The notes under the pieces were generated by a model that saw only the letters and a program-made list of their open reading frames with translations, was not told the origin of the DNA and made no database searches. From Bacillota bacterium (GTDB lineage Bacteria; Bacillota; Limnochordia; DTU087), in assembly GCA_012510855.1 (NCBI GenBank), contig JAAZHE010000113.1, forward strand, positions 1-32,225: DNA of 32,225 bases, given 5' to 3'. Below are positions 240 through 27,370 of the stretch, piece by piece. Numbering within the stretch: position 1 is the first letter of the stretch; each line of letters begins with the position of its first letter. The position numbers were made by a program, and so were the translations under genes.

Positions 240-274
240 GGGAATAAAGAACCAATTCGGGAAGTGAAATGGGG

Positions 275-805
275 ATGCAAAACGAGAAAAGAGTCCTAAC
301 GACTTTAGTACTTGCCCTAGCTGTCGTGGTCCTGGGTGCTTTTTTTGTGAGCGGCTACCTCTTAGACTACTTTGCCGGCCCAGGCTCATCCTCTTCCATT
401 GAGGCGGATGATCTTGAACACCTTCAAGTAAGTGTAGCCGCAGTCCAAGCGGAACTATCCCGCCTATCTAAGCTGTCTGAGGAGCTGCTGGAGCGTCAAG
501 CTGAGCTTCTTTCCTTGACTTCTTCTCTTGCACAGAAGGAACCCCAAGCTCCAGAGGAGCAGGTTGAGCAGCTCGGGCAGGTTGAGCAGGCTGCAGAGGC
601 TGCTCCACGGACAATAGAACTACGTATGATGAGAGGTGACACCATCTGGGCTTTTCTACACCGCTTGGGTATGCAGCCTGATGCCCAGTTAGTTGAGAAC
701 GTCCTTAGACTCAACGGCTTCAGCGATGCCAGGCGTATACCAGCGGGTACTTACATACGTATTCCACTCCAAGATACCACTTCCAGCCGTGAGGAGACGA
801 ATTGA
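275..805 (+). CDS. Membrane-anchored coiled-coil protein with C-terminal LysM-like domain
   Basis: Small bitopic membrane protein. It has a short cytoplasmic N-terminus, one membrane helix (about residues 8-32), a heptad-like Leu/Glu-rich stretch (about 50-85), a Gln/Glu-rich linker, and a LysM-like domain (about 115-170) recognisable by RGDTIWAFLHRLG, an Asn-Gly turn and the closing PAGTYIRIP. LysM domains usually bind peptidoglycan or chitin sugars, so the C-terminus probably faces the wall, which is inference. ATG 275 is preferred over ATG 269 because GGGAAG at 259-264 sits 10 bases before 275 but only 4 before 269. First gene of a five-gene operon: its stop lies 2 bases before the ATG of the GrpE-like gene, so it may place that system at the cell envelope. 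Confidence 0.8.
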   Translation: MQNEKRVLTTLVLALAVVVLGAFFVSGYLLDYFAGPGSSSSIEADDLEHLQVSVAAVQAELSRLSKLSEELLERQAELLSLTSSLAQKEPQAPEEQVEQLGQVEQAAEAAPRTIELRMMRGDTIWAFLHRLGMQPDAQLVENVLRLNGFSDARRIPAGTYIRIPLQDTTSSREETN

Positions 806-807
806 CC

Positions 808-1599
808 ATGTCAAAGGACGTACACAATCACACTAATATAATCCACTATTCGGTGCTGGGTCTCGGAGTCGGACTCTTAGCCATTGCCATTGTCTGTTTG
901 ACCATTACCCTGGTCAATGTCCATAACTTCCAACGTTCTCTGGCTCACATCTTGCTTGCCGGCTCCTTGGCCCTACTGCTTTTTGCTCCGTTTCTGATTG
1001 TCTGGTCGTACACTATCCTGTGGTTCAGCCCGACCAGTGAAGCTGCCTCCCGTTCAGACATAACAGCCCCTGGCCAGGAGGTGCAACCCGTGACCGTAGA
1101 TGTTCAAGGAGCCCAACCTGAAAAGGAAGATGTCGCAGTCGCTCCGGGCCAGGCAGAGTTGGTGCAGCGCCTTTCCCAGCAGCTGGAGCTGCTGCAAAAA
1201 CTCCAGACTGAGCAAGAAAAGCAGCTCTTAGAGGCCAGGGTGGCCCTAACTAACCGGGAAGCAATGCTTACCGATTGGCAGGATCGGGCCATGGAAATGT
1301 TTCGCCTGATGGAGCGGATCCTGGCCGGCGGCGAGAGGTTGAATGAGGGCTATCGGCGGGCAGTCCAGGATCTTTTGAAGAGGTACACCAGGCTCATGGA
1401 ACCATTAGGGATCTCACCCATCATACCAGAACCGGGTGAACCCTTTGATGAACTGCTGCATAGCCCTTGCAATGTGGAGCTCAGTGAAGATGTGCCTGCA
1501 GACCATGTAATTCGCTGTATAAGCTGGGGATTTGTGGTAAACGGACAGGTCCAGATTCCAGCTGAAGTAGTAATTGCTGCAGATCAAGAGGAGGACTGA
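808..1599 (+). CDS. Membrane-anchored GrpE-like nucleotide exchange factor
   Basis: 263-residue protein with two predicted membrane helices (about residues 10-36 and 44-72), then a long charged coiled coil (about 110-190) and a C-terminal region resembling the GrpE beta-wing: ISPIIPEPGEPFDELLH (GEPFD at 210-214, His218) and GFVVNGQVQIPAEVVIA, compared with GEPFDPxLHEAV and GYxLNGRVLRPAxVxV in GrpE. GrpE is normally a soluble cytosolic dimer of about 170-210 residues that opens the Hsp70 nucleotide cleft to release ADP; a two-helix anchor is atypical. Immediately downstream are an Hsp70 and a J-like protein, which supports the assignment. ATG 808 is chosen with GAGGAG at 791-796; a TTG at 802 overlapping the previous stop is the alternative. 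The GrpE call rests on motif recognition by eye. Confidence 0.72.
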   Translation: MSKDVHNHTNIIHYSVLGLGVGLLAIAIVCLTITLVNVHNFQRSLAHILLAGSLALLLFAPFLIVWSYTILWFSPTSEAASRSDITAPGQEVQPVTVDVQGAQPEKEDVAVAPGQAELVQRLSQQLELLQKLQTEQEKQLLEARVALTNREAMLTDWQDRAMEMFRLMERILAGGERLNEGYRRAVQDLLKRYTRLMEPLGISPIIPEPGEPFDELLHSPCNVELSEDVPADHVIRCISWGFVVNGQVQIPAEVVIAADQEED

Positions 1600-1600
1600 C

Positions 1601-3166
1601 ATGAGTCAACAGGGTTTTACTGTGGGAATCGATTTAGGAACGACCACGTCTTTGGTGGGGGTATTTCGGGGAGGCAAGCCGGAATTGATTCTGGATCCTA
1701 ACTCCACCACCAGATCGCCCATTGTTCCCTCTTTGGTCGCCATGGATAGTAGGGGCAGGCTGGTGGTTGGCGAGCGAGCCCGGACTCTAGTTAACAAAGG
1801 ACAGGGCGTGCGGGAAGTAAAACGGAAAATGGAAACCGGAGAGAAAGTAAAGCTTGGCGATGAGTCTTATCGGCCGGAGGAAATCTCCGCTCTCATATTA
1901 AAGCACCTCAAGGCCAATGCTGAACTTTACCTAAATGGTCCCGTCACTGATGTAGTGCTGTCTGTACCGGCTCTTTTCACCCAGACGGGCATATTCAACA
2001 CCAAGCAGGCTGGAGAGCTGGCAGGGCTCAATGTGCTGCATGTGATGAGTGAACCAACGGCAGCCGCCCTTGCCTTCGGCATCGATCATATGGATGTTGA
2101 TGAAAAGATTATGGTGTTTGATTTCGGAGGCGGGACTTTAGATATCAGCATAGTGGAACTAGTCGATGGGGTAATCGATGTGACCAGTGCCTTCGGCGAT
2201 ACCACTCTGGGCGGAAAGGATTTTGACGAGGCCTTAGTGGAACTGATCCTGGCCAAGTTTAGAGCAGAGTGCGGCGATGATGTGGAGATAACTGAGACTG
2301 CTTTTCATCAGCTGAAGTCTGCCGCCGAAACGTGTAAGATCCAGCTGTCAAGTGATGACACAGGTTTTGTAGAGCTGTTGAGCTTCGGGCTGCAGGATGG
2401 GTTTCCAGTAGATCTGGAGGTGGAGGTGAGCCGGGATGAGTTCAATCAAGAAACGGCACATTTGTTGGAGCGGGCTCGAACCTGTGTTTATAAGGCCCTA
2501 GAGCCTAAGAACCTGAGACCTGAGATGATCCATCGGGTCCTATTAGTTGGTGGTACCACCTACATACCCGCTGTCCGGGAAATGCTGGAGGAGATTTTCC
2601 CCAGCCGAGTGCGGGCAGATGTCCCCCCCGACCTAGCGGTAGCTATGGGCACCACTATCCGCTCCGCCATGCTAACAGGGCAGACGGACCCCAGTAAAGA
2701 TATCTTGATTGTAGACAGTTGGGCCCACGGCTTGGGAGTAGAGGTCCTCACCTTCAGGGACAACCAACCCGAGAAGGCATACAGCCCTCTAATGGAACCG
2801 AACACGGTGATACCTTACTCGGTAAAGCGCCGGTATTCACTAGTCCATTTTGAACAAAACGAAGTAGAAGTGAAAGTGCGGCAGACTACTGTCCGCAACG
2901 CCTACTTTCTAGAAGATACTGTCGATACCGGTATCTCAGGGGTAATCACCGATATTCCCACATCTGCCACCGGCGTTCCCCATGATGTAGAGATTGAGTT
3001 TTCAGTTAATGTAGACAAACTGATCAACTTAACCGCAACCATCCCCGCGACTGGACAGGAACTTAAGCTGGAGTTTAACCTGACTGACCTTCAGCTGAAT
3101 ACCCAGGAGCAGGTGACGGCCGCCAAGCGACGGGTGGATGAGCTGTGGTCCAAAGCAAGGAGGTAG
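1601..3166 (+). CDS. Hsp70/DnaK-family chaperone lacking the C-terminal lid
   Basis: 521-residue Hsp70-type ATPase. The nucleotide-binding domain is intact: phosphate-1 loop GIDLGTTTS near residue 9, a KRKM segment at the catalytic lysine region, SVPALF, SEPTAAALAFG, phosphate-2 FDFGGGTLDIS at 173-183, GDTTLGGKDFD, and the adenosine motif LLVGGTTYIP near 315. The linker, DILIVDSWAHGLGVEV, differs from the DnaK DVLLLDVTPLSLG. A beta-type substrate domain follows (about 370-490), then only a short helix; the alpha-helical lid of about 100 residues in DnaK is absent (typical DnaK is 600-640 residues). ATG 1601 follows GAGGAGGAC with good spacing; an in-frame TTG at 1574 lies inside the preceding gene and has no such site. 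It probably acts with the GrpE-like protein just upstream and the J-like protein just downstream. It is not the housekeeping dnaK. Confidence 0.92.
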   Translation: MSQQGFTVGIDLGTTTSLVGVFRGGKPELILDPNSTTRSPIVPSLVAMDSRGRLVVGERARTLVNKGQGVREVKRKMETGEKVKLGDESYRPEEISALILKHLKANAELYLNGPVTDVVLSVPALFTQTGIFNTKQAGELAGLNVLHVMSEPTAAALAFGIDHMDVDEKIMVFDFGGGTLDISIVELVDGVIDVTSAFGDTTLGGKDFDEALVELILAKFRAECGDDVEITETAFHQLKSAAETCKIQLSSDDTGFVELLSFGLQDGFPVDLEVEVSRDEFNQETAHLLERARTCVYKALEPKNLRPEMIHRVLLVGGTTYIPAVREMLEEIFPSRVRADVPPDLAVAMGTTIRSAMLTGQTDPSKDILIVDSWAHGLGVEVLTFRDNQPEKAYSPLMEPNTVIPYSVKRRYSLVHFEQNEVEVKVRQTTVRNAYFLEDTVDTGISGVITDIPTSATGVPHDVEIEFSVNVDKLINLTATIPATGQELKLEFNLTDLQLNTQEQVTAAKRRVDELWSKARR

Positions 3167-3170
3167 GACC

Positions 3171-4604
3171 GTGGACAACCACTACGTTACCCTGGGAGTG
3201 CCGGTACATGCTGCTCCTGAGGACATCCGCAAAGCCTATTTTCGCCTAATCCGCCGTTTTCCTCCGGAGACCCATCCTGAGGAATTCCAGAGGATCCGGA
3301 CGGCCTATGAAGTACTCAGCGATCCCGTGGCCAAGCAGCGCTACGATGCGTTTCTTAAGCAAGGCAGCCGTATTAATGAACTGCTGGAGGCAGCGGCCCT
3401 GCATGAGGCCCAGGAGGATTGGTACGGAGCGGTAGAGGTCTTTCTAAAGCTGCTGCAATTCCTTCCTGAGGATCCCGATTTATCACTGCGCCTAGGTGAG
3501 TGCTATCTTAGGCTGCATTCATATAAGAAAGCTGCGGAGATTTTTGAGAAGCTGGTCAAAAAAGACGATCAGGAGTTTGCCAACTGGTTCGGTCTGGGCC
3601 GGGCTTATCTTGGTCAGGCGGTGAATGAAGAGGAAAGAACTACTCGATTTGCCCTGCTGACAGAAGCACGGGATGCTTTTGGGCGGGCACAAAGGCTAGA
3701 GCCTAAGGAAAGGGCTGTTTACTCCCTCCTGGGTACCGTATATGAAATTCAAGGCGACTTCTCCTCCAGCATAGTCTGCCTGAAACAGGGGATAGCAGCC
3801 AACGGAGCTCCATCTTTTGGGGATCTGGGGCTCCTAATTCAGCTTTGTGGCGTTCTTTTGGTGAGAAATCAGTTGGGAGAGGCTAAAGAATATTTCGGAC
3901 AGATCGCTGAGATAGCTGTTTCGGATCCATATCAGCGGAGCTATGCTGCCCAAAGACTGGTCAGGGAAGCGGCCAGGTGGACGGAGAATTATAGATATGA
4001 TCTGGCGGTGCCCTATGTGGAACAGGCCAACCGCCTCTCTCCAGAGGACTTTGGCCGCGATTCAGTGGATTGGCTGGCGGACATGGCCGCTAGCATTGCT
4101 GCCCTGGAAAAGATCAAGTACGCGTATATTCCGCCCATCTACGAATTGTCCCGGTTTATCATTCACGAGCACCACATGTGCGGTCAAGGTGAGGAGCTCT
4201 CCGAATCCAGGCGAATAGAATTCCGGGATGCCCTGGTTGAAGACCTGCTTCAGTACAGCCCCCAGGAGCTTCTCTCCAATCTAGAGCGCCTCCGACAGGA
4301 GTACCCTGCTTTGATTCGTTTGGACGGAGGCTGGTTTTCGTCTCTAGAGACATTGTGCCGGGAAGAACTGGACCGACAGAGAACTGCAGGGTCGAAGTCC
4401 CACTCGCATGTTACCGCTGCAACTGCCTCCTCAACCCAGACCGGTTCCTACTCATCTAGGCAAGCCGCGGCATCCCCATCCCGCTCCAGCGGTGGCGGTA
4501 AGGCAGTGGGAGCGGTGGTGGGCGGTGTCATCGGTGCTGCTGTGGGTGGCCCTATAGGAGCCATTATCGGTGCCTGGCTCGGGAGCAGCTTGGGTGGTGA
4601 TTGA
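3171..4604 (+). CDS. J-domain-like TPR protein with glycine-zipper C-terminus
   Basis: 477-residue protein starting at GTG 3171 after AAGGAGGT. Residues 3-62 form a J domain (HYVTLGV, AYFRLIRRF, IRTAYEVLSDP, RYDAFL), but HPD is replaced by PPE (31-33) and the following loop is short. Tetratricopeptide-like helical pairs occupy about 72-330. After a Ser/Thr-rich linker (about 405-437) comes a Gly/Ala-rich segment from about 440 to the end (AVGAVVGGVIGAAVGG), a glycine-zipper pattern that often packs in membranes. Canonical J proteins stimulate Hsp70 ATPase through HPD; loss of HPD usually marks J-like proteins that recruit or scaffold instead. Its start lies 4 bases after the Hsp70 stop, so the two are probably a pair. 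The stop overlaps the next start as TGATG. Confidence 0.85.
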   Translation: MDNHYVTLGVPVHAAPEDIRKAYFRLIRRFPPETHPEEFQRIRTAYEVLSDPVAKQRYDAFLKQGSRINELLEAAALHEAQEDWYGAVEVFLKLLQFLPEDPDLSLRLGECYLRLHSYKKAAEIFEKLVKKDDQEFANWFGLGRAYLGQAVNEEERTTRFALLTEARDAFGRAQRLEPKERAVYSLLGTVYEIQGDFSSSIVCLKQGIAANGAPSFGDLGLLIQLCGVLLVRNQLGEAKEYFGQIAEIAVSDPYQRSYAAQRLVREAARWTENYRYDLAVPYVEQANRLSPEDFGRDSVDWLADMAASIAALEKIKYAYIPPIYELSRFIIHEHHMCGQGEELSESRRIEFRDALVEDLLQYSPQELLSNLERLRQEYPALIRLDGGWFSSLETLCREELDRQRTAGSKSHSHVTAATASSTQTGSYSSRQAAASPSRSSGGGKAVGAVVGGVIGAAVGGPIGAIIGAWLGSSLGGD

Positions 4605-7084
4605 TGAGCAAGTCAACTAATCTGCCTGATCACAAGGAGGCCATGCCGGTGCTGAAAGAGGTCAGACCCACCCCTGAACAGGAGAGGTTCGTCCAGTCAG
4701 TACACGATAGTATACTCCTTCACGCTTGTGTGGGAACAGGCAAGACTTTTGCCCTCGCCAACCGAGCTGCCGAAGCCATCCGTCGCGGGATTCCTCCAGA
4801 ACGTATTCTATGCGTCACCTTTACTAACCGAGCTGCGCAGGAAATGCGCGACCGGGTAGCCCTGTACTGTCCTCAAGACAGCCATAGGATAGTAATTAGA
4901 ACCTTTCACGGCTTGTGTGCTTGGATCTTGCGCCTTCGGGCACGGCAGTTGGGCATTCCCCAAGACTTCAGCATTATCGATGAAGACGATGCCCAGGAGA
5001 TCATCACCCACCTAAAGCTACCGGAGCGGACAGGGATGAAAGCGTCCGAGATTTACCACCTTCTGCAAGACCTCAAGATCCACAGGCATTCTAAGAATGG
5101 GGAGAGTAGGTCTTATGTCAATGGGAAGCGGCTCCAGGAGATTTATGACCATTACCAGTCAGAGCTGGTCGCCTATCGGGGTTTAGATTTCGGAGATCTG
5201 ATTGCCTTAACCCATCAGGCTTTTTCTCCGGGAGGTCCGCTAAACCAAGAGTGGAGCCAGCGTTTTGATCTAGTGCAGGTGGATGAAATGCAGGATACCC
5301 ACCTAGTTGAGTACGACATCGTAGCTCATCTGGCTCGCCGCTCCCAGAACCTGGTACTGGCAGGGGACTTTGATCAGACTATTTACGAATGGCGGGGGTC
5401 AAATCCCCAAAAGGTTTTGTCCCAGTTCAAGAAGGATTTTCCCAGATACAAGGAGATGACCTTCACTTTTAATTTCCGGGCAACTAGAACACTGATTGCT
5501 GCTGCCCAGGCGGTGGTTACCTCTCTGAGCAATATCAAGCCCCAGCCGGCAGTGTCTTCTGTTCAAGGCCAACCCATAGTCGTGCATCGGGCCCGGACAG
5601 AAGAGGGGGAAGCTAACTGGATCGCTTCGCAGATCAGAATCTTGCACCAGCAGGGGACGGCCTACGACAGGATCGGAGTGCTCTGCCGTTCCAACAAGCG
5701 GGCCCAGGTTATCTCACGTGCTTTAGAAAGGCGTAGGATTCCCCATCTGACTGTGGAAACCTACGAGTTCTTTCGAAGGCAGGAGGTCAAAGACTGCCTG
5801 GCCTATCTGCGGATGCTCCTGAACCCAGAGGACAGCGTGAGTTTGCGCAGGGTTCTCCGCAGACCGCCTCGGGGCATAGGCGAGCGGACCCTCCAACGCA
5901 TAGAGGAAAGTGCTGGGGTGGGCCTACGTCTGCCGGACCTCTTGAACCCAGCAGCATTGGAAACCGGCGACCCCTTTGCCCCCTTACTCATGGCTTTAGA
6001 GTACGGCACTGTGATCGTATTTGACTGCGAGACTACGGGAATTGATCCAGCTGTAGATGAGATCATCGAGATTGCCGCGTACAAAATCCACCGGGGTCAA
6101 CTGGTGGATACTTTCCACCGCTATATTACCCCGAGCAGAAGCGTGGGACATAGCGTGCATGTGCACGGCCTGACCGATGAATTCTTGGCGGAGCAGGGGA
6201 AGGCCCCCCAGATTGTGCTGCAGGAGTTTCAGAGCTTTATCGGGGAGGGCCTCCTTGTAGGCCACAATGTAGTCTTTGATCTGCGGATGTTGGAAGCCGC
6301 GTGCCACCGGCACGGGATACCCTTCCAGCGGGATAGCTGGGTAGATACCCTTTCTTTGGCCCGGCGCTTTGTGCAGAGCGACACCTACAAGCTGGGGGAT
6401 TTGGCAGACCTCCTGGGTTTGGCCCAAAGACCAACCCATAGAGCCCTAGATGATGTGGGCGCTACCTGGGAGCTGCTGAAATATATAGTGCCCAAAACTA
6501 AGCAGGGTGCCCAGAAGCGTCGGGAGATGGTGCAGGCCGTTGCCCATGCCTTTTGGCCCCTGGCGGAGCAGATCAGCCACTGGCAGGGACTGGTGCAGAA
6601 ATTGAGGCCCCATCAGCTCCTTACCTGGGTCCTAAGTGAGAGCGGCCTGCTGGAATACTATAAGAGAGAAGAGAAGCGGATGAACAACATCCAGGAGCTG
6701 CTCAAGACAGCCCAGGAACTTGACGACCCCAAGCTGCCCCCTGCCACTGCGCTCGAGTCCTTTACCAGCTTTGCCGCCTTAGCCCGCAACATAGACCGTG
6801 TTGACCGGGCGGAACGGGTGACAGTAATCACTGTCCACCAGGCCAAAGGCTTAGAATTTGATGTGGTGTTTATGGCGGGGTTGTCCCACGATGAATTCCC
6901 CCATTATCTATCCATGAAAGAGGGCAGAGAAGAGGAGGAAAAAAGACTCTTTTATGTGGGAATTACCAGGGCTAAACAGCGGCTGTTTATGAGCTATCAT
7001 CAGTTGACCGATAAGGGATATAGCCGTGTCCCCAGCCGCTATCTGGACTTGATTCCCAACACTATTGAGGCAAGGAGCGGCTGA
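4604..7084 (+). CDS. UvrD/PcrA-type SF1 helicase with an inserted DEDDh 3'-5' exonuclease domain
   Basis: 826-residue fusion. Helicase motifs are in order: Walker A CVGTGKT (Lys47), Ia FTNRAAQEM, II VDEMQDT (Asp227, Glu228), III GDFDQTIYEWRGS, IV TFNFRAT, V TVHQAKGLEFD (about 743), VI YVGITRAKQR (about 784). After the RGIGERTLQRI segment of subdomain 2B the chain enters a complete DnaQ/PolC-type exonuclease (about 468-630): ExoI FDCETTG (Asp474, Glu476), ExoII GHNVVFD (Asp559), ExoIII HRALDD (His612, Asp617). Helicase sequence then resumes. All catalytic residues of both enzymes are present, so a machine that unwinds DNA and trims 3' ends is likely, probably in repair. ATG 4604 overlaps the previous stop (TGATG), implying translational coupling. 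A TTG at 4601 is the alternative start. Confidence 0.93.
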   Translation: MSKSTNLPDHKEAMPVLKEVRPTPEQERFVQSVHDSILLHACVGTGKTFALANRAAEAIRRGIPPERILCVTFTNRAAQEMRDRVALYCPQDSHRIVIRTFHGLCAWILRLRARQLGIPQDFSIIDEDDAQEIITHLKLPERTGMKASEIYHLLQDLKIHRHSKNGESRSYVNGKRLQEIYDHYQSELVAYRGLDFGDLIALTHQAFSPGGPLNQEWSQRFDLVQVDEMQDTHLVEYDIVAHLARRSQNLVLAGDFDQTIYEWRGSNPQKVLSQFKKDFPRYKEMTFTFNFRATRTLIAAAQAVVTSLSNIKPQPAVSSVQGQPIVVHRARTEEGEANWIASQIRILHQQGTAYDRIGVLCRSNKRAQVISRALERRRIPHLTVETYEFFRRQEVKDCLAYLRMLLNPEDSVSLRRVLRRPPRGIGERTLQRIEESAGVGLRLPDLLNPAALETGDPFAPLLMALEYGTVIVFDCETTGIDPAVDEIIEIAAYKIHRGQLVDTFHRYITPSRSVGHSVHVHGLTDEFLAEQGKAPQIVLQEFQSFIGEGLLVGHNVVFDLRMLEAACHRHGIPFQRDSWVDTLSLARRFVQSDTYKLGDLADLLGLAQRPTHRALDDVGATWELLKYIVPKTKQGAQKRREMVQAVAHAFWPLAEQISHWQGLVQKLRPHQLLTWVLSESGLLEYYKREEKRMNNIQELLKTAQELDDPKLPPATALESFTSFAALARNIDRVDRAERVTVITVHQAKGLEFDVVFMAGLSHDEFPHYLSMKEGREEEEKRLFYVGITRAKQRLFMSYHQLTDKGYSRVPSRYLDLIPNTIEARSG

Positions 7085-7248
7085 TCTGCCGCTGGTGCAC
7101 GGCGGTTTCCGTGTTACGGGCTCCAGGCCTAATTCTCAACATTGAGTCGAATGCGATGGGACTGAAAGCATGTCCCAGCAGTTGACGCTGTCTAGGAGAT
7201 CGCGACTCATGGGTAGAATAACCATGGGTCGTAGTAGGGGGGGAGCAT

Positions 7249-7734
7249 ATGGATTTTTCTATCCGCAAGATCGAATCAAGTGATACCAGTGTTCTCAAAG
7301 AGATGCTGTACCATGCCATCTTTGTTCCAGAAGGGGCACCTAAGCCTGCCCCGGACATCGTGGAACAGCCGGAACTAAAGAGATACATTGTCGGCTGGCG
7401 GTATCCGGAGGACATGGGCTTTGTTGCTGTGGCAGATCAGAGGGTGATCGGGGCAGCTTGGACCCGTCGATGGAGTTCGGACAATCCGGGGTATGGGTTT
7501 GTGGATGAGCATACACCAGAGCTAAGTATAGCAGTACTGCCTGGTTATCGAGGGCAGGGGATTGGAACAAAGCTGCTTGCACGGCTGTTCCAGGAGCTAC
7601 AAGACTTAGGGGTTAAGTCAGTCTCCTTGAGTGTTGATCTTAGAAATCCAGCAGTACGTCTCTACGAGAGATTCGGTTTTACCATTGCTGAAGTCAAAGG
7701 TACATCCTGTGTGATGCAGTGTCGGTTATCTTGA
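7249..7734 (+). CDS. GNAT-family N-acetyltransferase
   Basis: 161-residue single-domain GNAT enzyme, which transfers the acetyl group of acetyl-CoA to an amine. Motif A is clear: LSIAVLPGYRGQGIGTKLL, with RGQGIG matching the R/QxxGxG/A pyrophosphate-binding loop at about residues 103-108. The motif B region is SVDLRNPAVRLYERFGF, typical of the family's C-terminal half. ATG 7249 has a G-rich site (GGGGGAG) just upstream. The substrate cannot be read from sequence; small-molecule, antibiotic or protein N-terminal acetylation are all possible. It stands alone behind a 164-base gap that contains only a weak CATGG/CCATG hairpin near 7208-7226. Nothing ties it functionally to the upstream operon. 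Confidence 0.9.
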   Translation: MDFSIRKIESSDTSVLKEMLYHAIFVPEGAPKPAPDIVEQPELKRYIVGWRYPEDMGFVAVADQRVIGAAWTRRWSSDNPGYGFVDEHTPELSIAVLPGYRGQGIGTKLLARLFQELQDLGVKSVSLSVDLRNPAVRLYERFGFTIAEVKGTSCVMQCRLS

Positions 7735-11012: not shown

Positions 11013-12719
11013 TTACGGCATTTTCTCATCATTTAACCTAAAGTAAATTTGAACCGTTACCCAGGTCCCATCTCTTGCAGTAGTCTCCGAATATGGAGTG
11101 AAAAGCCACTCCTTGACTGCCTCCAGTGCTGAGTTATCTAGATCCCATCTGCCTGAACTCTCAGCGATGACTACTTCTTGGGGAACACCATCGGGGTTGA
11201 CCCTGACCCAGAGTCTAGTTGCTCCCTCTTTTCCCTGCCGTAAAGCCGCCTGAGGATACTGGGGCTTTACGTACCTGATGACCTCCAAGCTCGCCGGCGA
11301 TAGCTGAGCCCGTTCGGGGTTATTGTCAAGATCTACTCCACCTGCAGTCTCCAACTCCCTTGCGGGGTGGGGTAGGGGAGGCAGAGCCGCCGGCGATAGT
11401 ATTCTATCTAAGTCGGCTTTTGCAACCTGTGCCAGTACATCCTCAGATACCATCGCCTTGTGAGGTTGAGACGGGTTCATTCCTGCGTCAATCCTCTCTG
11501 CTGGCGGCACAGACTCCGCCCTTGTCGGTGCCGTGTTGAGCCCTTCCACCGCAACCTGTGGTGCAACAATTGTCGCCGACCGAGGGACTTCTGCCGGGAT
11601 TCTGACCTCGGGAACCTCTGCTGTATCTGCACCTTTGTTCTGGGGCAGGCCATCAGTATGGGTCAAATCTGATGGCATCGTTCCAGCCCGTCTAGAGTCA
11701 GCGGCCAGGGCCCTTTCAGACCCATAGCTATGTCCAGATAACTGCGTAATGCCGCCTTTGGAAGGAAAGCGTCCGGAAAGCGCCATACCCGATGCCGTAC
11801 CAATGTGGGACAGGGCAGCAGTCTCTCTGCTCCCTGCCCCTTGATCTGAAGACAGTAGAGGTTGGACGTCGCCGATTATATGTTCATGGGTATGGGTTAG
11901 CGCCGCTACAGCCGGTTGTACGGACCGCTCTTGGGCCGCTCCCCGGTTGTAACTATATTTGGGCCTCATTTCTTTTGGGTGAGGCTGGGAAGGCGGCTGC
12001 GGGTTTGGATCAGCAGCCAGTACCGGCGACTCTCTTCCTGCTGCTGTCGGGTTTCCTTCTCGAATCTCCCGTGCCATGGCGATGGTGGCGGGAGATTGAG
12101 AAACCGTTGGTACGGTCTCAACTGCACCATGCGGCAGACTGCCAGGAATATCCTGGATTGCCGGCTGCGGCAAAATCTGAGTAATGTCTTGGTCTACAAG
12201 CTGCCACGTGGTCTGATGAGTCATTTCCGATTTGGGTTCAGGCACGATTTCTTGCGGTCGGGAGACCGCCCACTGGGGAGTCTCAGGCATTAGCGGTGGC
12301 ATCTTACGGTCAAGCGGCGGTGTTGCCATGGGTATAGGCTCCTCAGGTAGAGCCTTGTCCACGATAGGAACTGAATGCTCACCAACTGGCTCCACCAAAA
12401 CCTCGCGGGCAGGTCTTGGTACGCGATCGATGGGCAATGGAGTCCGTTCCCAATTGGGTCGTTCCATTGGCTGTCTGGTCGGTGTTAATCCTGGTGTTAC
12501 AGCAGGGCTCTTTTGCAGTGTGATCCTCGGCCCGCTGTGCCACTGGGTTCTTAATGGCTTTGTTTGAGAAGGCATGGGCTCTGGCTGCGCAAAGAAACGT
12601 CCACCCGCCACCACTAAGAAGAATACGTGGAATAGAAGAGATAGCCCTAAACAGCGCTTGAGGAGCTGTCTGTTAACAGTGGTTTTTTCCATTGCCCTTG
12701 CCCCGCTTGCGCAGTCCAT
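11013..12719 (-). CDS. tonB: TonB-family energy transducer, unusually long
   Basis: 568-residue TonB-like protein. One membrane helix (about residues 19-42) carries Ser27 and His31 in SLLFH, the spacing of the functional Ser16/His20 pair of E. coli TonB. A very long Pro/Glu/Thr-rich, probably disordered region spans about 50-470. The TonB C-terminal domain occupies about 480-565 (YVKPQYPQAALRQGKEGATRLWVRVNPDG, then AVKEWLFTPYS). TonB carries proton-motive energy from ExbB-ExbD to outer-membrane receptors by binding their TonB box. E. coli TonB is 239 residues, so this one is more than twice that length. ATG 12719 directly abuts the exbD stop and is preceded by GGAGGAG at an 8-base distance. 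The operon mate btuB encodes the likely client receptor. Confidence 0.92.
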   Translation of the reverse strand: MDCASGARAMEKTTVNRQLLKRCLGLSLLFHVFFLVVAGGRFFAQPEPMPSQTKPLRTQWHSGPRITLQKSPAVTPGLTPTRQPMERPNWERTPLPIDRVPRPAREVLVEPVGEHSVPIVDKALPEEPIPMATPPLDRKMPPLMPETPQWAVSRPQEIVPEPKSEMTHQTTWQLVDQDITQILPQPAIQDIPGSLPHGAVETVPTVSQSPATIAMAREIREGNPTAAGRESPVLAADPNPQPPSQPHPKEMRPKYSYNRGAAQERSVQPAVAALTHTHEHIIGDVQPLLSSDQGAGSRETAALSHIGTASGMALSGRFPSKGGITQLSGHSYGSERALAADSRRAGTMPSDLTHTDGLPQNKGADTAEVPEVRIPAEVPRSATIVAPQVAVEGLNTAPTRAESVPPAERIDAGMNPSQPHKAMVSEDVLAQVAKADLDRILSPAALPPLPHPARELETAGGVDLDNNPERAQLSPASLEVIRYVKPQYPQAALRQGKEGATRLWVRVNPDGVPQEVVIAESSGRWDLDNSALEAVKEWLFTPYSETTARDGTWVTVQIYFRLNDEKMP

Positions 12720-13127
12720 TTACAGTTCTCCTCCGAGCCGATGTACAGCAAACCCAATGTTTTCAATGCCAAGTAATCGGATTTCGTCCATGAGACCCAT
12801 GATCACCGCGAACTCTGCTTTGGCATCTGCGAAGATGAAAGCTTCAGAAAACCCACCATCCTCAAGTGCCTGTCTTAGCTCTTGTCTGAACAGGTCCATT
12901 GCCACCGGCTTATTGTCAAGGTAGACCAGCCCATTTTGGGAGACGAAGAGCACTAAAGAGGCCCCCCTGGGATCAGTGCCGCTATAGGCACCGGGCAGTT
13001 GGATGGCTACCTCTGCTGGTTGAGCTATTGTTCCCGCGCTGAAGATGGCGAAAACCAATAGCTGAAAAACTATATCTATGAGAGGAGCCATACTAATTCT
13101 GGGCTGCCTGCGCCGGGGTCGGTACAC
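12720..13127 (-). CDS. exbD: ExbD/TolR biopolymer transport protein
   Basis: 135-residue bitopic protein. The basic N-terminus YRPRRRQPRISMAPLIDIVFQLLVF is the ExbD/TolR signature; Asp18 in the membrane helix is the conserved proton-pathway residue. A periplasmic domain follows (about 45-135). GTG 13127 is chosen: GGGAG lies 5 bases upstream and the length then fits ExbD (about 140). A longer open frame from 13187 would add 20 residues that lie inside exbB. The start overlaps the 3' end of exbB by 35 bases and the stop touches the tonB start, so the motor genes are translationally linked. ExbD dimers sit in the ExbB pentamer pore and couple proton flow to TonB movement. Confidence 0.93.
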   Translation of the reverse strand: MYRPRRRQPRISMAPLIDIVFQLLVFAIFSAGTIAQPAEVAIQLPGAYSGTDPRGASLVLFVSQNGLVYLDNKPVAMDLFRQELRQALEDGGFSEAFIFADAKAEFAVIMGLMDEIRLLGIENIGFAVHRLGGEL

Positions 13128-13758
13128 GGTGTCTCCCTCTTTTCTGCAAGAGATCCTGCAGTTCCATCCCACAGGTTTGGCTTTCAAGAGCTAATCTGTC
13201 TATCTGCTTGGTTAGGTAATGGTACACAGCCAAATTGAAAATAGCCACCATTAAGCCCGCTGCCGTGGTAATTAGCGCTTCCGATATTCCTCCAGCCAGC
13301 AGCATTGGCTGCTGCATACCGTGTCTGGAAAAGACCGAAAAGGTATCAATCATACCGGTCACTGTGCCCAGTAGTCCCAACAGCGGAGCTAGATCTGCAG
13401 TCAAGGCAATAATGTCCATATGCTCTTCCAGTCTGGCAAATTCGGTTTGCTCTTTTTCCTCCATGCCTTGCTGAACCGTTTTGTTTCCAGAAATCCAAGC
13501 TGCCAGTCCGCCCTCAAGGACTGCAGCCACTGGCCCTTCGAAGGAGGCGGCCGCCCGTCGAGCGGCCTCAGGTCCTTCCTTCTCGAGGGTACAGGCGATC
13601 AAGTCCATCAGCGCCTGGTGGTCCTGGTCGGCTCTTCGTACATGATAGAAGCGCTCTAAGGCAAAGGCTAGGCTGATTGCAGACAATCCCAGGATGACTA
13701 CCAGGACTGGTCCGCCTTTAATTAGTAAACCAGTCACCTGAATCCCACCACCTGTCAT
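13093..13758 (-). CDS. exbB: ExbB/TolQ/MotA-family proton channel
   Basis: 221-residue inner-membrane protein with three predicted membrane helices (about 10-30, 115-140 and 155-185) and the cytoplasmic loop typical of ExbB. The family signature is LLGLLGTVTGMIDTFSVFSRHG followed by GGISEALITTAAGLMVAIFNLAVYHYL, which lines the proton channel and contacts ExbD. It lies 20 bases after btuB and overlaps exbD, so the order btuB-exbB-exbD-tonB is a self-contained outer-membrane uptake module. TolQ or a MotA relative would share these motifs, but the TonB and receptor neighbours favour ExbB. Confidence 0.93.
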   Translation of the reverse strand: MTGGGIQVTGLLIKGGPVLVVILGLSAISLAFALERFYHVRRADQDHQALMDLIACTLEKEGPEAARRAAASFEGPVAAVLEGGLAAWISGNKTVQQGMEEKEQTEFARLEEHMDIIALTADLAPLLGLLGTVTGMIDTFSVFSRHGMQQPMLLAGGISEALITTAAGLMVAIFNLAVYHYLTKQIDRLALESQTCGMELQDLLQKRGRHRVPTPAQAAQN

Positions 13759-13778
13759 GCATCCTGTCCACCGGTTAA

Positions 13779-15641
13779 CTAGAAAGAGTAGCTGAATCCT
13801 GCGCTGATCATCCGAGGCGGGGCGGGGTATCCTGCGCTGTCTTCGTATTCAGTATCAAAAAGGTTGCTAACCCGGCAGTGGAGCTGCCAGTCTGAGCCTA
13901 GTTCTTGCAGCAGATTCAGATTAGTGACAGTATAGGCTGGGAGTATCAGTCCTCCTTCAGCCGGTCTGTCACCTACATACAGGGTCTCCAGTGTACCTGA
14001 AAAACCCTTTGTATTAGTATAGGTAACCCCGGCCTGTGCCTTGTGGGAAGGAGCATATTCCAATGGCTGATTGTCATTCTTGACAGCATCCAGATAGGTA
14101 TAGTTGAACTGAGCTGTCAACGCAGCAGTCAATGGATAAGCAACCTCTACCTCAATTCCTTGGACCTGAACAGCGTCTATGTTAACCACTTTCCAGACAT
14201 ACGGTTCCACTTCCGCCCAGTTTATCATGTTGGTTACATCCCGATGGAAGACTGCTGCCGAGAAACTGGTGTGATTATCTAACCAGTGCTGCCACCCCAG
14301 CTCATAGTTCTTAGCCGTCTCTGGCTTTAGTTCAGGATTTCCGTACATAGACCAGGTTTCTTCCCACCAATAGAGGTCATTGAACGTAGGAGCTCGAAAT
14401 GCATTGCCCCAGGATGCATAGAGCTTGGTCCTGTCCCGCAACAGATAATTGAGACCGAGGCGACCGCAAAGGGAATCGCCGTGGCTGGAAAACCGGTCAT
14501 ACCGGCCGCTAATCACAATATCGAAACGGGGTGTTAAGCTGTAGATATCCTGGGCGTATACCCCCCAGTTGGTGCGTTCCTTAGGTTCTGCAAACTTGGT
14601 GCTGTTTACCCAGTTTTTCTCCCCCGCGACGCCGTATGTGAACAGATGCCGTGAGGTGGCCGGTATAGTGTTAATCTGCAAGTCCCAACCGGCTCTTTTC
14701 CCATTGTGTAGAGAATCATCGGTACCAAGATTATACATCTGTACACCATCGTAATATGTCCTGAGGGTCAGGTCAGACGATAGACTCAGAATCCGCTCAT
14801 ACCGGAAGTCCAGCGAGGTGTTCTTTCCCTCTCGCCAGCCTTCAGTGCCTGGCACACCAGGGTATGGAGGCACTTCCAAATCATAGTCTAAGTGTCTGAC
14901 TCCCATGGAAATCTGCTCAGTAGCAGACAAGTCATGGTCTAGCCTTAGATGAAAATCCAGTTTCCTATAGCTGCTGTGTTCCTGGAAACTGTCAGTACTA
15001 GATCTGTTTGCTGTAAGATAATATCCGGTTAACCCAGAACGACCTGCGCTGGTAAATGTCGCGGAGCGGGTGCCGTATTCTCCAACATCGATGGTCACGG
15101 TATGGGACGGCTCCCCTTCGCCTGCTGCAGTGATGATGTTGACGACTCCAGCTACGGCATCTGCCCCGTACAAGGCAGATGCAGCACCTTTGATGATTTC
15201 GATCCGTTCAATGTTGTGAACAGGTATAGTAGATGCATCGACTCCTCCCGACCGGGCATCATTGATGGGGCGACCGTCCATCAGAACCAATGTTTGTGGG
15301 TTGGATGAACCCCTGATGAATATGCTGGCAGGGCTGCCCATCGTACCTGTGTCCTTTATGTACACACCGCTGACAGTTTTGAGCGCTTCACCCAGATTGG
15401 TCACCCCTGTTCGCTCCAGCTGGGCTCTGGTGAGCACTACCACGCTGGCGGGAGTCTCGGTGATGATTTGAGGGATACGGCTAGCAGTAACTACGATGGT
15501 AAAGACCTCATTGCTCAAGGCCAGATCGTTCTGGGGAAGGTCTTTTGCAGAGATAGAGGTGGATAGAATTAGGCTGAATAAGCATGCAAAAACAATCTTT
15601 TTTGTATATCCGTGATTACCAGCAGGAAAAGTATGAGACAC
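13779..15641 (-). CDS. btuB: TonB-dependent outer-membrane cobalamin receptor (BtuB-like)
   Basis: 620-residue outer-membrane protein. It begins with a signal peptide (KKIVFACLFSLILSTSISA, cut before KD), then a TonB box FTIVVTAS that resembles the DTLVVTA box of E. coli BtuB. The plug domain (about 45-165) contains GEALKTVSGVYI, IFIRGSSNPQTLVLMDGRPIND and IERIEIIKGAASALYGADAVAGVVNIIT. The rest is a 22-strand-type beta barrel with many alternating aromatic residues, closing with MISAGFSYSF, a C-terminal Phe typical of BAM substrates. GTG 15641 follows AAAGGAG at 7 bases. A cobalamin riboswitch and a terminator precede it, which supports corrinoids as the ligand. BtuF/BtuCD are not in this window. 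Its presence implies an outer membrane. Confidence 0.95.
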   Translation of the reverse strand: MSHTFPAGNHGYTKKIVFACLFSLILSTSISAKDLPQNDLALSNEVFTIVVTASRIPQIITETPASVVVLTRAQLERTGVTNLGEALKTVSGVYIKDTGTMGSPASIFIRGSSNPQTLVLMDGRPINDARSGGVDASTIPVHNIERIEIIKGAASALYGADAVAGVVNIITAAGEGEPSHTVTIDVGEYGTRSATFTSAGRSGLTGYYLTANRSSTDSFQEHSSYRKLDFHLRLDHDLSATEQISMGVRHLDYDLEVPPYPGVPGTEGWREGKNTSLDFRYERILSLSSDLTLRTYYDGVQMYNLGTDDSLHNGKRAGWDLQINTIPATSRHLFTYGVAGEKNWVNSTKFAEPKERTNWGVYAQDIYSLTPRFDIVISGRYDRFSSHGDSLCGRLGLNYLLRDRTKLYASWGNAFRAPTFNDLYWWEETWSMYGNPELKPETAKNYELGWQHWLDNHTSFSAAVFHRDVTNMINWAEVEPYVWKVVNIDAVQVQGIEVEVAYPLTAALTAQFNYTYLDAVKNDNQPLEYAPSHKAQAGVTYTNTKGFSGTLETLYVGDRPAEGGLILPAYTVTNLNLLQELGSDWQLHCRVSNLFDTEYEDSAGYPAPPRMISAGFSYSF

Positions 15642-25791: not shown

Positions 25792-26952
25792 TTACCTATC
25801 AGTGGCATCCGAAGGAAGCTGCCTGCCCTTATACAAAACCGGTCTACCGTGGCGGGTATTAAGCTCATCCATAAGGCGAGTGAGTCTTTCCCGGCGGGGA
25901 TCGGAAAAGAGGGATGGCTGACCAAAGCCGGTCAGTTGCGAGACATACACTCCCAGGAGCCGTACAGGGCGCTGGCCTATATTATCCACCAGCAGCTTGT
26001 AGGCAGTATGAAAGATATCGTCATCGTTGTTCACAGGCTCCGGCAAAGAACTTGAGCGGGTGATGGTTGTAAAATCATCGTAGCGGAGCTTGAGTGTGAT
26101 GGTTCTAGCCCACAGCCCATGCCGCCGCAGCCGGTAGCCCACCTCTGCGGTCAGGTCTGCCAAGACTTGCCGCAGCTTGGACATTGCTGCTATATCCTCA
26201 GCGAAGGTAGTTTCTCTGCCGAGGGATTTGGTCTCAGCCTCAGGTTCCACCGGACTGTGATCGATGCCCCTGGCCAATTGATATAAAGTATAACCTTGTT
26301 TGCCAAACTGTCTGACAAGTGTTTCTCGGGAGCAGCGCCTTAAATCTGCGATTGTGTATACCTGCCAGCTGGCCAACACTTCTGCCGTCTTTTGGCCAAT
26401 GCCCCAGACCTTTTTGACCGGAAACTGCGCCAGCCAGTCCCAAACCTCTTGCGGCCTGACGACCACCAGGCCATCGGGTTTGCGGTAATCTGAGGCTAAC
26501 TTGGCAACAAATTTGTTGGGGCCAATTCCAACTGAGGCAGTGAGAGAGACAGTTTCAAAGATTCTCCGCTTGATGGCCCGGCCCAAGTCTTCTAGGCTTT
26601 CGTAGAGGTGCTCACAACCTGTCATGTCCAGGAAGGCCTCGTCGATGGAGACAATCTCTACTACCGGAGAGAATTCGTAAAAGACCGAGCGGATCTGGCG
26701 AGACACAGCCGCGTATTTCTTATGGTTGCCGGGAATGAAGATCCCATGGGGACACAGCTTCACCGCTTGGGCGATGGGCATAGCGGAATGCACGCCGTAT
26801 TTCCGGGCCTCATATGAACAGGTGGAGACAACGCCCCGCTTGCTGTCCCGGTGTCCTCCTACAATGACGGGTTTGCCCCTAAGCTCAGGGTTGTCACGCT
26901 GCTCAACGGCGGCGAAAAAGGAATCCATATCGACGTGCATAATTATCGCCAT
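25792..26952 (-). CDS. dinB: DNA polymerase IV (Y-family translesion polymerase)
   Basis: 386-residue Pol IV, which copies past lesions without proofreading. Catalytic residues are Asp8 and Asp10 (HVDMDSFF, steric-gate Phe13) and Asp104/Glu105 (SIDEAFLD). SYEARKYGVHSAMP and SVGIGPNKFVAKLASDYRKPDG are family signatures. A helix-hairpin-helix thumb (KKVWGIGQKT) and the little-finger domain follow. QPSLF at about 345-349 matches the beta-clamp binding motif; about 37 further residues come after it. ATG 26952 follows GGGGAGGTG at the right distance, and the conserved chain begins there; the open frame extends 126 codons further upstream without homology. No LexA box is visible. Confidence 0.97.
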   Translation of the reverse strand: MAIIMHVDMDSFFAAVEQRDNPELRGKPVIVGGHRDSKRGVVSTCSYEARKYGVHSAMPIAQAVKLCPHGIFIPGNHKKYAAVSRQIRSVFYEFSPVVEIVSIDEAFLDMTGCEHLYESLEDLGRAIKRRIFETVSLTASVGIGPNKFVAKLASDYRKPDGLVVVRPQEVWDWLAQFPVKKVWGIGQKTAEVLASWQVYTIADLRRCSRETLVRQFGKQGYTLYQLARGIDHSPVEPEAETKSLGRETTFAEDIAAMSKLRQVLADLTAEVGYRLRRHGLWARTITLKLRYDDFTTITRSSSLPEPVNNDDDIFHTAYKLLVDNIGQRPVRLLGVYVSQLTGFGQPSLFSDPRRERLTRLMDELNTRHGRPVLYKGRQLPSDATDR

Positions 26953-26976
26953 CCGCTCGCACCTCCCCTTGGTTCT

Positions 26977-27006
26977 ATTATACCACCGGCCAGCCGCCAT
27001 TGTTGA
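26977..27006 (-). promoter_or_regulatory. Candidate dinB promoter
   Basis: On the minus strand TCAACA (27006-27001, four of six -35 matches), an 18-base spacer and a perfect TATAAT (26982-26977) lie 25 bases before the dinB ATG. The leader would be short. Confidence 0.5.
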
Positions 27007-27130
27007 CTCTGTGGACCCCGGGGCGTAGAAAGCCTGAGGAGACTGCGTAATTAGCTCTAGAATTCGGGAAGACTGATCTTGGCCGCCTTTCGGGGGCCGA
27101 TTACTGCAAGTCCTACAGGGGGTGCGAATA

Positions 27131-27370
27131 GTGGGAGATGAGCGTTTCTTCAAAGATGATTTGCACGTAAAATATGGAGGTATGCGTTTTACTAAGCATG
27201 CATCTTCTGAGGAGATCAACCGGTTTGTCCGGGAGCTTTCTGCAAAGGAGAGGGAATCCCTGGCAATTGTTGTACGCAAACTGGAGCAAGCTGGACTTAT
27301 TTCCTTAGATGGAGAACATACGATGACCATTGATGATGAGATGCAGGACCTGCAGGAACCAAATAAGTAG
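27131..27370 (+). CDS. Small hypothetical protein upstream of hflX
   Basis: 79-residue acidic and hydrophilic protein, probably mostly helical (EEINRFVRELSAKERESLAIVVRKLEQAGLI), with no membrane segment, signal peptide or Cys pattern. I do not recognise the family. GTG 27131 is chosen, with GGGGGTG about 7 bases upstream; GTG 27122 would leave no room for a ribosome-binding site, and ATG 27140 is a third possibility. It lies 47 bases before hflX on the same strand, so the two may be co-transcribed. The length, codon pattern and start signal are consistent with a real gene, but this rests on the open frame alone. Confidence 0.6.
   Translation: MGDERFFKDDLHVKYGGMRFTKHASSEEINRFVRELSAKERESLAIVVRKLEQAGLISLDGEHTMTIDDEMQDLQEPNK

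Follow-up and report, generated by a model that had tools for sequence, protein, structure and literature searches.

What is a complete exonuclease domain doing in the middle of a UvrD-type DNA helicase? The question is raised by a gene at positions 4604-7084 of the window, a 32,225-nucleotide stretch of DNA (contig JAAZHE010000113.1) from the draft genome of a Bacillota bacterium (assembly GCA_012510855.1); this gene, its domains and the operon genes described below are on the plus strand. It is one intact open reading frame (ORF) without internal stops, and its 826-residue product (P0001) is identified by Pfam and alignment as a UvrD/PcrA-type superfamily 1A (SF1A) helicase with an internal DEDDh exonuclease. 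The N-terminal helicase part (subdomains 1A/1B, residues 23-280, positions 4670-5443) matches PF00580 (UvrD-helicase) with an E-value of 2.9e-59 and contains the Walker A motif GTGKT (residues 44-48) and the DE pair (227-228), which are invariant or near-invariant in the family alignment. The UvrD_C match (residues 286-800, E-value 3e-96) is split by a match to RNase_T (PF00929, residues 471-624, E-value 1.1e-30). The C-terminal RecA-like segment 2A, with motifs V and VI (T743 to F752, R789), was located at positions 6818-7081 by Pfam, alignment and AlphaFold2. With Walker A/B and the remaining SF1 motifs present and 2B inserted in 2A, Pfam, alignments and fold search all support the SF1A assignment. 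The exonuclease domain (residues 467-628, positions 6002-6487; delimited by PF00929, Protein Data Bank (PDB) matches, Foldseek and the profile envelope) has an intact and complete Asp-Glu-Asp-His-Asp catalytic set (D474, E476, D559, H612 and D617) and a predicted DnaQ fold. Its sequence matches in the PDB are to PolC, DnaQ and DEDDh proteins, the PolC exonuclease being the nearest solved sequence. A first-pass annotation of this DNA had named the same five residues as a complete DEDDh site flanked by complete SF1A motifs; both statements hold, far beyond chance expectation, and the five residues are invariant in 27 of the 27 aligned members of the family described below.

The exonuclease had also been placed in subdomain 2B, after the RGIG segment, and the alignments to solved structures confirm this insertion point. 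The family profile stops aligning with Geobacillus PcrA at residue 443 and picks up at 456; the corresponding positions are 440 and 450 in E. coli UvrD and 467 and 484 in M. tuberculosis UvrD1. The exonuclease thus takes the place of a short 2B segment, some 9-12 residues between positions 440 and 450 of E. coli UvrD (443 and 456 of Geobacillus PcrA). The site follows the GIG motif (residues 424-426, positions 5873-5881) at a distance of about 20 residues. The first part of 2B (approximately residues 388-453, positions 5765-5962; AlphaFold2 helices at 393-453) includes this motif and precedes the insertion, and the second part (approximately residues 633-735, positions 6500-6808), which aligns with PcrA from residue 456 on and is likewise helical in AlphaFold2, follows it. 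Two complementary AlphaFold2 models were obtained from different alignments, neither of which has the helicase and the exonuclease both good. In the first model, the exonuclease has a confident DnaQ fold, with blocks of predicted local distance difference test (pLDDT) values of ~85-98 over residues 470-630 and a root-mean-square deviation (rmsd) of 1.9 Å to 8h2f (Foldseek); the helicase C-terminus is poor, and in the underlying alignment about 30 residues of helicase-only rows are misplaced into exonuclease columns. In the second, the helicase is good, with 2B helices on both sides of the insertion and pLDDT mostly 82-94 past residue 650 in the second part of 2B, and the exonuclease is disordered, with low pLDDT, because the alignment is shallow over it. 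The best Foldseek matches of this helicase model are closed, DNA-bound UvrD/PcrA structures (template modelling score TMt 0.82-0.86), with an rmsd of 5-6 Å to several of them as opposed to ~16 Å to open forms.

Helicase motifs and the 1A-1B-2A-2B layout are common to P0001 and to UvrD, PcrA, Rep and UvrD1, but the helicase-exonucleases form a separate clade and have a complete exonuclease between fixed 2B anchors. The PcrA equivalog TIGR01073 (NCBIfam) matches P0001 in two stretches, scoring 424 bits where the cut-off is 911. In a tree of the helicase with the exonuclease cut out, a branch with a Shimodaira-Hasegawa-like approximate likelihood ratio test (SH-aLRT) value of 99 separates all 26 exonuclease-bearing proteins from 33 exonuclease-less helicases. 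Canonical PcrA/UvrD orthology thus failed on the cut-off and on the tree and, judged by sequence, the helicase-exonucleases are a sister family of PcrA, not PcrA itself. A single origin of these proteins is favoured, although the long branches of the Bacteroidota and Acetoanaerobium rows keep it short of proof. The source genome encodes a separate, ordinary PcrA (contig C71, 743-749 residues) that is 35% identical to the helicase-exonuclease, which is therefore an extra enzyme; it also has a large AddA/RecB-like frame on contig C238.

Several known systems join helicases to nucleases. The AddA, RecB and AdnAB proteins likewise have an SF1A motor and a nuclease in one chain, the nuclease being C-terminal and of the RecB/PD-(D/E)XK fold. 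No RecB-type nuclease was found in P0001 by Pfam, and the protein ends shortly after motif VI; AddA/RecB membership was accordingly rejected, and the first-pass annotation was right to set its nuclease apart, in type and position, from the C-terminal one of AddAB/RecBCD. Compared with the DnaQ-like DEDDh exonucleases (PolC exonuclease, DnaQ, Cas2-DEDDh), the catalytic set and fold are alike but here the exonuclease is an insertion in a helicase subdomain. ExoDinG (Bacillus subtilis DinG) also combines a helicase and a DEDD exonuclease in one polypeptide (PMC12525004, PMC11981726), but it is an XPD-like SF2 protein with the exonuclease at the N-terminus, not within an accessory subdomain; in B. 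subtilis DinG, the nearest analogue that has been studied, the ATPase neither helps nor hinders 3'-end degradation (PMC12525004). B. subtilis MrfAB likewise pairs a helicase with a DEDDh 3'-5' exonuclease, for repair, but as two separate proteins (PMC11194089). The closest counterpart is RTasHel of PADLOC (PDLC03802), a helicase associated with defence-associated reverse transcriptase (DRT) systems, which matches residues 23-817 with 605 bits. The RTasHel profile shares the architecture, as the isolated exonuclease region scores 89 bits at profile positions 386-543 of 675; it differs in that it carries no mechanism, and ordinary PcrA scores too, on the helicase part. The architecture has thus been catalogued before, without a mechanism. 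A search with PF00078 detected no reverse transcriptase in the source genome, which is ~85% complete, so membership in a DRT system was rejected and P0001 belongs to the RTasHel family by architecture. We came across no account, in the open-licence literature, of a UvrD helicase whose 2B subdomain houses a DEDDh domain, and plasmid records label members only as '3'-5' exonuclease' or 'ATP-dependent helicase'.

Members were identified in 27 of 398 genomes drawn evenly from the Bacillota (~7%), representing ten families, with a few copies partial or split between contigs. Profile scores are bimodal: members score at least 490 bits, and ordinary helicases score at most 390 bits and match the first half of the profile only. 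Full-length exonuclease-bearing homologues are 65% (in a Bacillota metagenome-assembled genome), 62%, 50%, 47%, 47% and 45% identical to P0001. More distant ones, also with the exonuclease, occur in Acetoanaerobium noterae (34%) and on Chryseobacterium and Prevotella plasmids (~25%), and a Phocaeicola vulgatus plasmid has another match of similar length; outside the Bacillota, the spread is known from plasmid records only. The first-pass annotation had named absence of the insertion in close relatives as grounds for refutation; all homologues that group with P0001 carry the insertion, and where the family is absent, in the sampled genus mates, the whole gene is missing. The span between the fixed 2B anchors is nearly constant, at 208-215 residues in all 27 aligned members, in which helicase residues such as D227, E228, Q258, R292 and R789 are also invariant; the five DEDDh residues remain so in an 11-row alignment that includes three Bacteroidota homologues. 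In the five close pairs with a fully compared exonuclease (pairs with truncated exonuclease envelopes were left out), ratios of nonsynonymous to synonymous substitution rates (dN/dS, worked out from dN and dS) lie at ~0.08-0.24 in the exonuclease and 0.12-0.23 in the helicase. Both modules are under purifying selection in these pairs and, since the catalytic residues of both domains are invariant, two live enzymes appear to be kept together in one polypeptide. The helicase-exonucleases form a bacterial family that is old, scattered and, it appears, unstudied, and that is not limited to the source genome; they are a genuine, uncharacterised variant of the helicase-nuclease theme, not a one-off. 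One broken copy, with an in-frame stop and frame changes, was seen in a single-contig genome (G032, C1:2125000-2139000, locus L043, ~6363-7631). Four scans of IMG/VR viral contigs yielded exonuclease-less UvrD helicases or DnaQ-type matches owing to the exonuclease only; among the 80 viral helicase loci checked for ORFs, none had helicase and exonuclease together; and phage records had no match covering 80% of the query. A phage origin was rejected, as no exonuclease-bearing helicase was seen among the viral contigs found.

As for function, we lean, by a narrow preference over doubt, towards a bifunctional accessory DNA-processing enzyme that would process 3' ends at branched or gapped DNA in support of repair and replication. 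The SF1A motor would load on single-stranded DNA, travel 3' to 5' and clear secondary structure, short duplexes and bound protein, and the DEDDh domain, on the mobile 2B arm, would remove nucleotides from 3' ends at forks, gaps and nicks, whether the motor uncovers these ends or comes upon them. The 3'-to-5' direction of translocation and the 3'-to-5' exonuclease activity are predicted from what is known of the two families. We only infer that the two domains work on one and the same DNA molecule, which of the 3' ends is cut, and that the role lies in supporting repair or replication and not in dedicated defence. The first-pass annotation proposed that unwinding and 3'-end trimming are mechanically coupled and that the nuclease may switch the helicase; such coupling of the putative nuclease activity to the motor would be plausible. 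In DNA-bound monomer structures, 2B touches the duplex ahead of the fork (PMC13238157). Because 2B is on the leading duplex side and the 3' end trails a 3'-to-5' motor, the trailing 3' end would not be a natural substrate; digestion of the tracked strand's 3' end in cis would not be an obvious geometry, and this end would probably be reached only through a large 2B rotation or by a second subunit. It is conceivable, although we think it improbable, that 2B rotation gates the access of 3' ends to the nuclease, so that one conformation unwinds and the other trims and the protein works as a motor/nuclease selector. If true, this would be a coupling scheme unlike those of RecBCD/AddAB or ExoDinG.

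In the window, the helicase gene closes an operon of five overlapping genes, and its ATG shares bases with the stop codon before it (TGATG). The preceding four encode a small membrane-anchored protein with one N-terminal hydrophobic segment (269-805, from sequence), a GrpE-like protein with two hydrophobic, probably membrane, N-terminal segments (802-1599; Pfam GrpE, 1.8e-9), a DnaK/Hsp70-like protein of 530 residues (1574-3166; Pfam HSP70, 8.6e-104) and a protein with a DnaJ domain, tetratricopeptide repeats (TPR) and a glycine zipper (3138-4604; Pfam and sequence). Together (269-4604) they look like a membrane-linked chaperone set. The first two, the small membrane protein and the GrpE-like gene, also occur together in G039, which has one of the nearest helicases in the tree. 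In the closest named relative, a Bacillota metagenome-assembled genome (locus L005, 811-3173), an AAA_11-type SF1 helicase-like gene and a 209-residue gene precede the helicase instead of chaperone genes. Gabija (GajB) was rejected as an identification: the flanking genes encode GrpE, Hsp70, DnaJ-TPR, GNAT and flavin mononucleotide (FMN) reductase proteins, and Pfam found no GajA-type (OLD-type ATPase/TOPRIM) gene.

Elsewhere, neighbours are diverse. In some lineages they are chromosomal housekeeping genes such as comEC, glutamate dehydrogenase and holA, and elsewhere they read by eye from the sequences as tig-clpP-clpX. In Bacteroidota, neighbours comprise a DNA methylase, a DEAD helicase and a Sacsin/SF1B protein; TerY-like, kinase, PP2C and FtsK genes; or, on plasmids, Fic/RhuM genes. 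On a Prevotella sp. E2-28 plasmid (locus L046, 172-18526), TerY-C, kinase, VWA, PP2C, formylglycine-enzyme-like and two FtsK-type genes surround the distant homologue. In genome G120 (C135:4000-20000, locus L086, 2224-15725), four UvrD-type helicase genes stand in tandem, one of them with the exonuclease, next to a 1452-residue AAA_11/AAA_12 protein with a DUF559/restriction endonuclease-like C-terminus. This tandem region looks like a defence island.

Several observations weigh against a support role in repair and replication. PADLOC lists RTasHel under reverse-transcriptase defence, several members adjoin defence-type genes, and the neighbourhood is not stable across the family. No full-length member was found in four sampled genus mates, two of them only 82-90% complete; one of the four, G003 (100% complete; C94:4800-12000, locus L281, ~1208-1907), has a clear deletion scar, where the helicase is gone and fragments of the GNAT, DnaJ-like and DnaK-like genes are joined end to end. 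The gene is therefore not essential and, with only fragments left in G003, the operon is dispensable; the simplest reading is that the operon stood at the same site in an ancestor and can be lost. Finally, neither AlphaFold2 model fixes where the exonuclease lies with respect to DNA and, the models being complementary and neither good throughout, we claim the insertion point but not this placement. The main rival is an anti-phage or anti-plasmid nuclease-helicase, whose motor would engage foreign DNA ends or replication intermediates for the exonuclease to degrade, within defence modules. It would fit the full-length RTasHel match, the best in PADLOC and with a profile that spans the exonuclease, as well as the Bacteroidota gene neighbours, the G120 tandem beside the AAA_11/12-DUF559 protein, and the patchy distribution and operon loss. 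However, the source genome, as far as it is complete, yielded no reverse transcriptase, the partners in the window operon are Hsp70-type chaperones, for which PADLOC gave nothing but a single weak match, and in families f41 and f61 the gene has housekeeping neighbours, 9 of the 10 listed genomes of f41 containing a member. We regard a defence function as unlikely, though it deserves serious consideration.

A mainly regulatory attachment, by which the exonuclease in 2B would control duplex binding and dimerisation, hence helicase activation, and possibly sense a 3' end, seems to us a doubtful explanation. It draws on the insertion lying so close to GIG, which touches the duplex in monomer-DNA complexes and, in UvrD1 dimers, lies near the 2B-2B interface, and on the control of helicase activity by 2B orientation (reviewed by Lohman and colleagues, PMC13238157), but all catalytic residues are invariant, as opposed to the purely structural pseudo-exonuclease of pExoDinG (PMC11981726). 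An assembly or annotation chimera of pcrA and dnaQ genes might be suspected in a draft of 248 contigs with 6.5% estimated contamination. However, the junctions recur in independent genomes, in proteins 45-65% identical from end to end, and the flanking genes match the genus-mate locus at ~70-85% DNA identity. The same insertion site and length in the 27 Bacillota genomes and on Bacteroidota plasmids thus exclude an assembly artefact for practical purposes, and the chimera was rejected. Accessory processing of 3' ends in repair and replication remains the function that we prefer.

Debate over 2B in UvrD-type helicases, which may be a passive clamp, a wedge or an activation switch, goes back years. 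That 2B houses a nuclease throughout a natural family means that this subdomain can accommodate a large moving cargo and perhaps put it to use; the family also offers a natural test case in which the two active sites can be inactivated separately. It is relevant to DRT systems as well, among which this architecture is already listed.

Two other parts of the window deserve mention. Genes for TonB, ExbD, ExbB and a TonB-dependent receptor (11013-15641) point to an outer membrane in this Bacillota lineage. A Y-family (IMS) DNA polymerase-like gene (25792-27330) encodes a 512-residue protein with ~130 residues ahead of the IMS domain.

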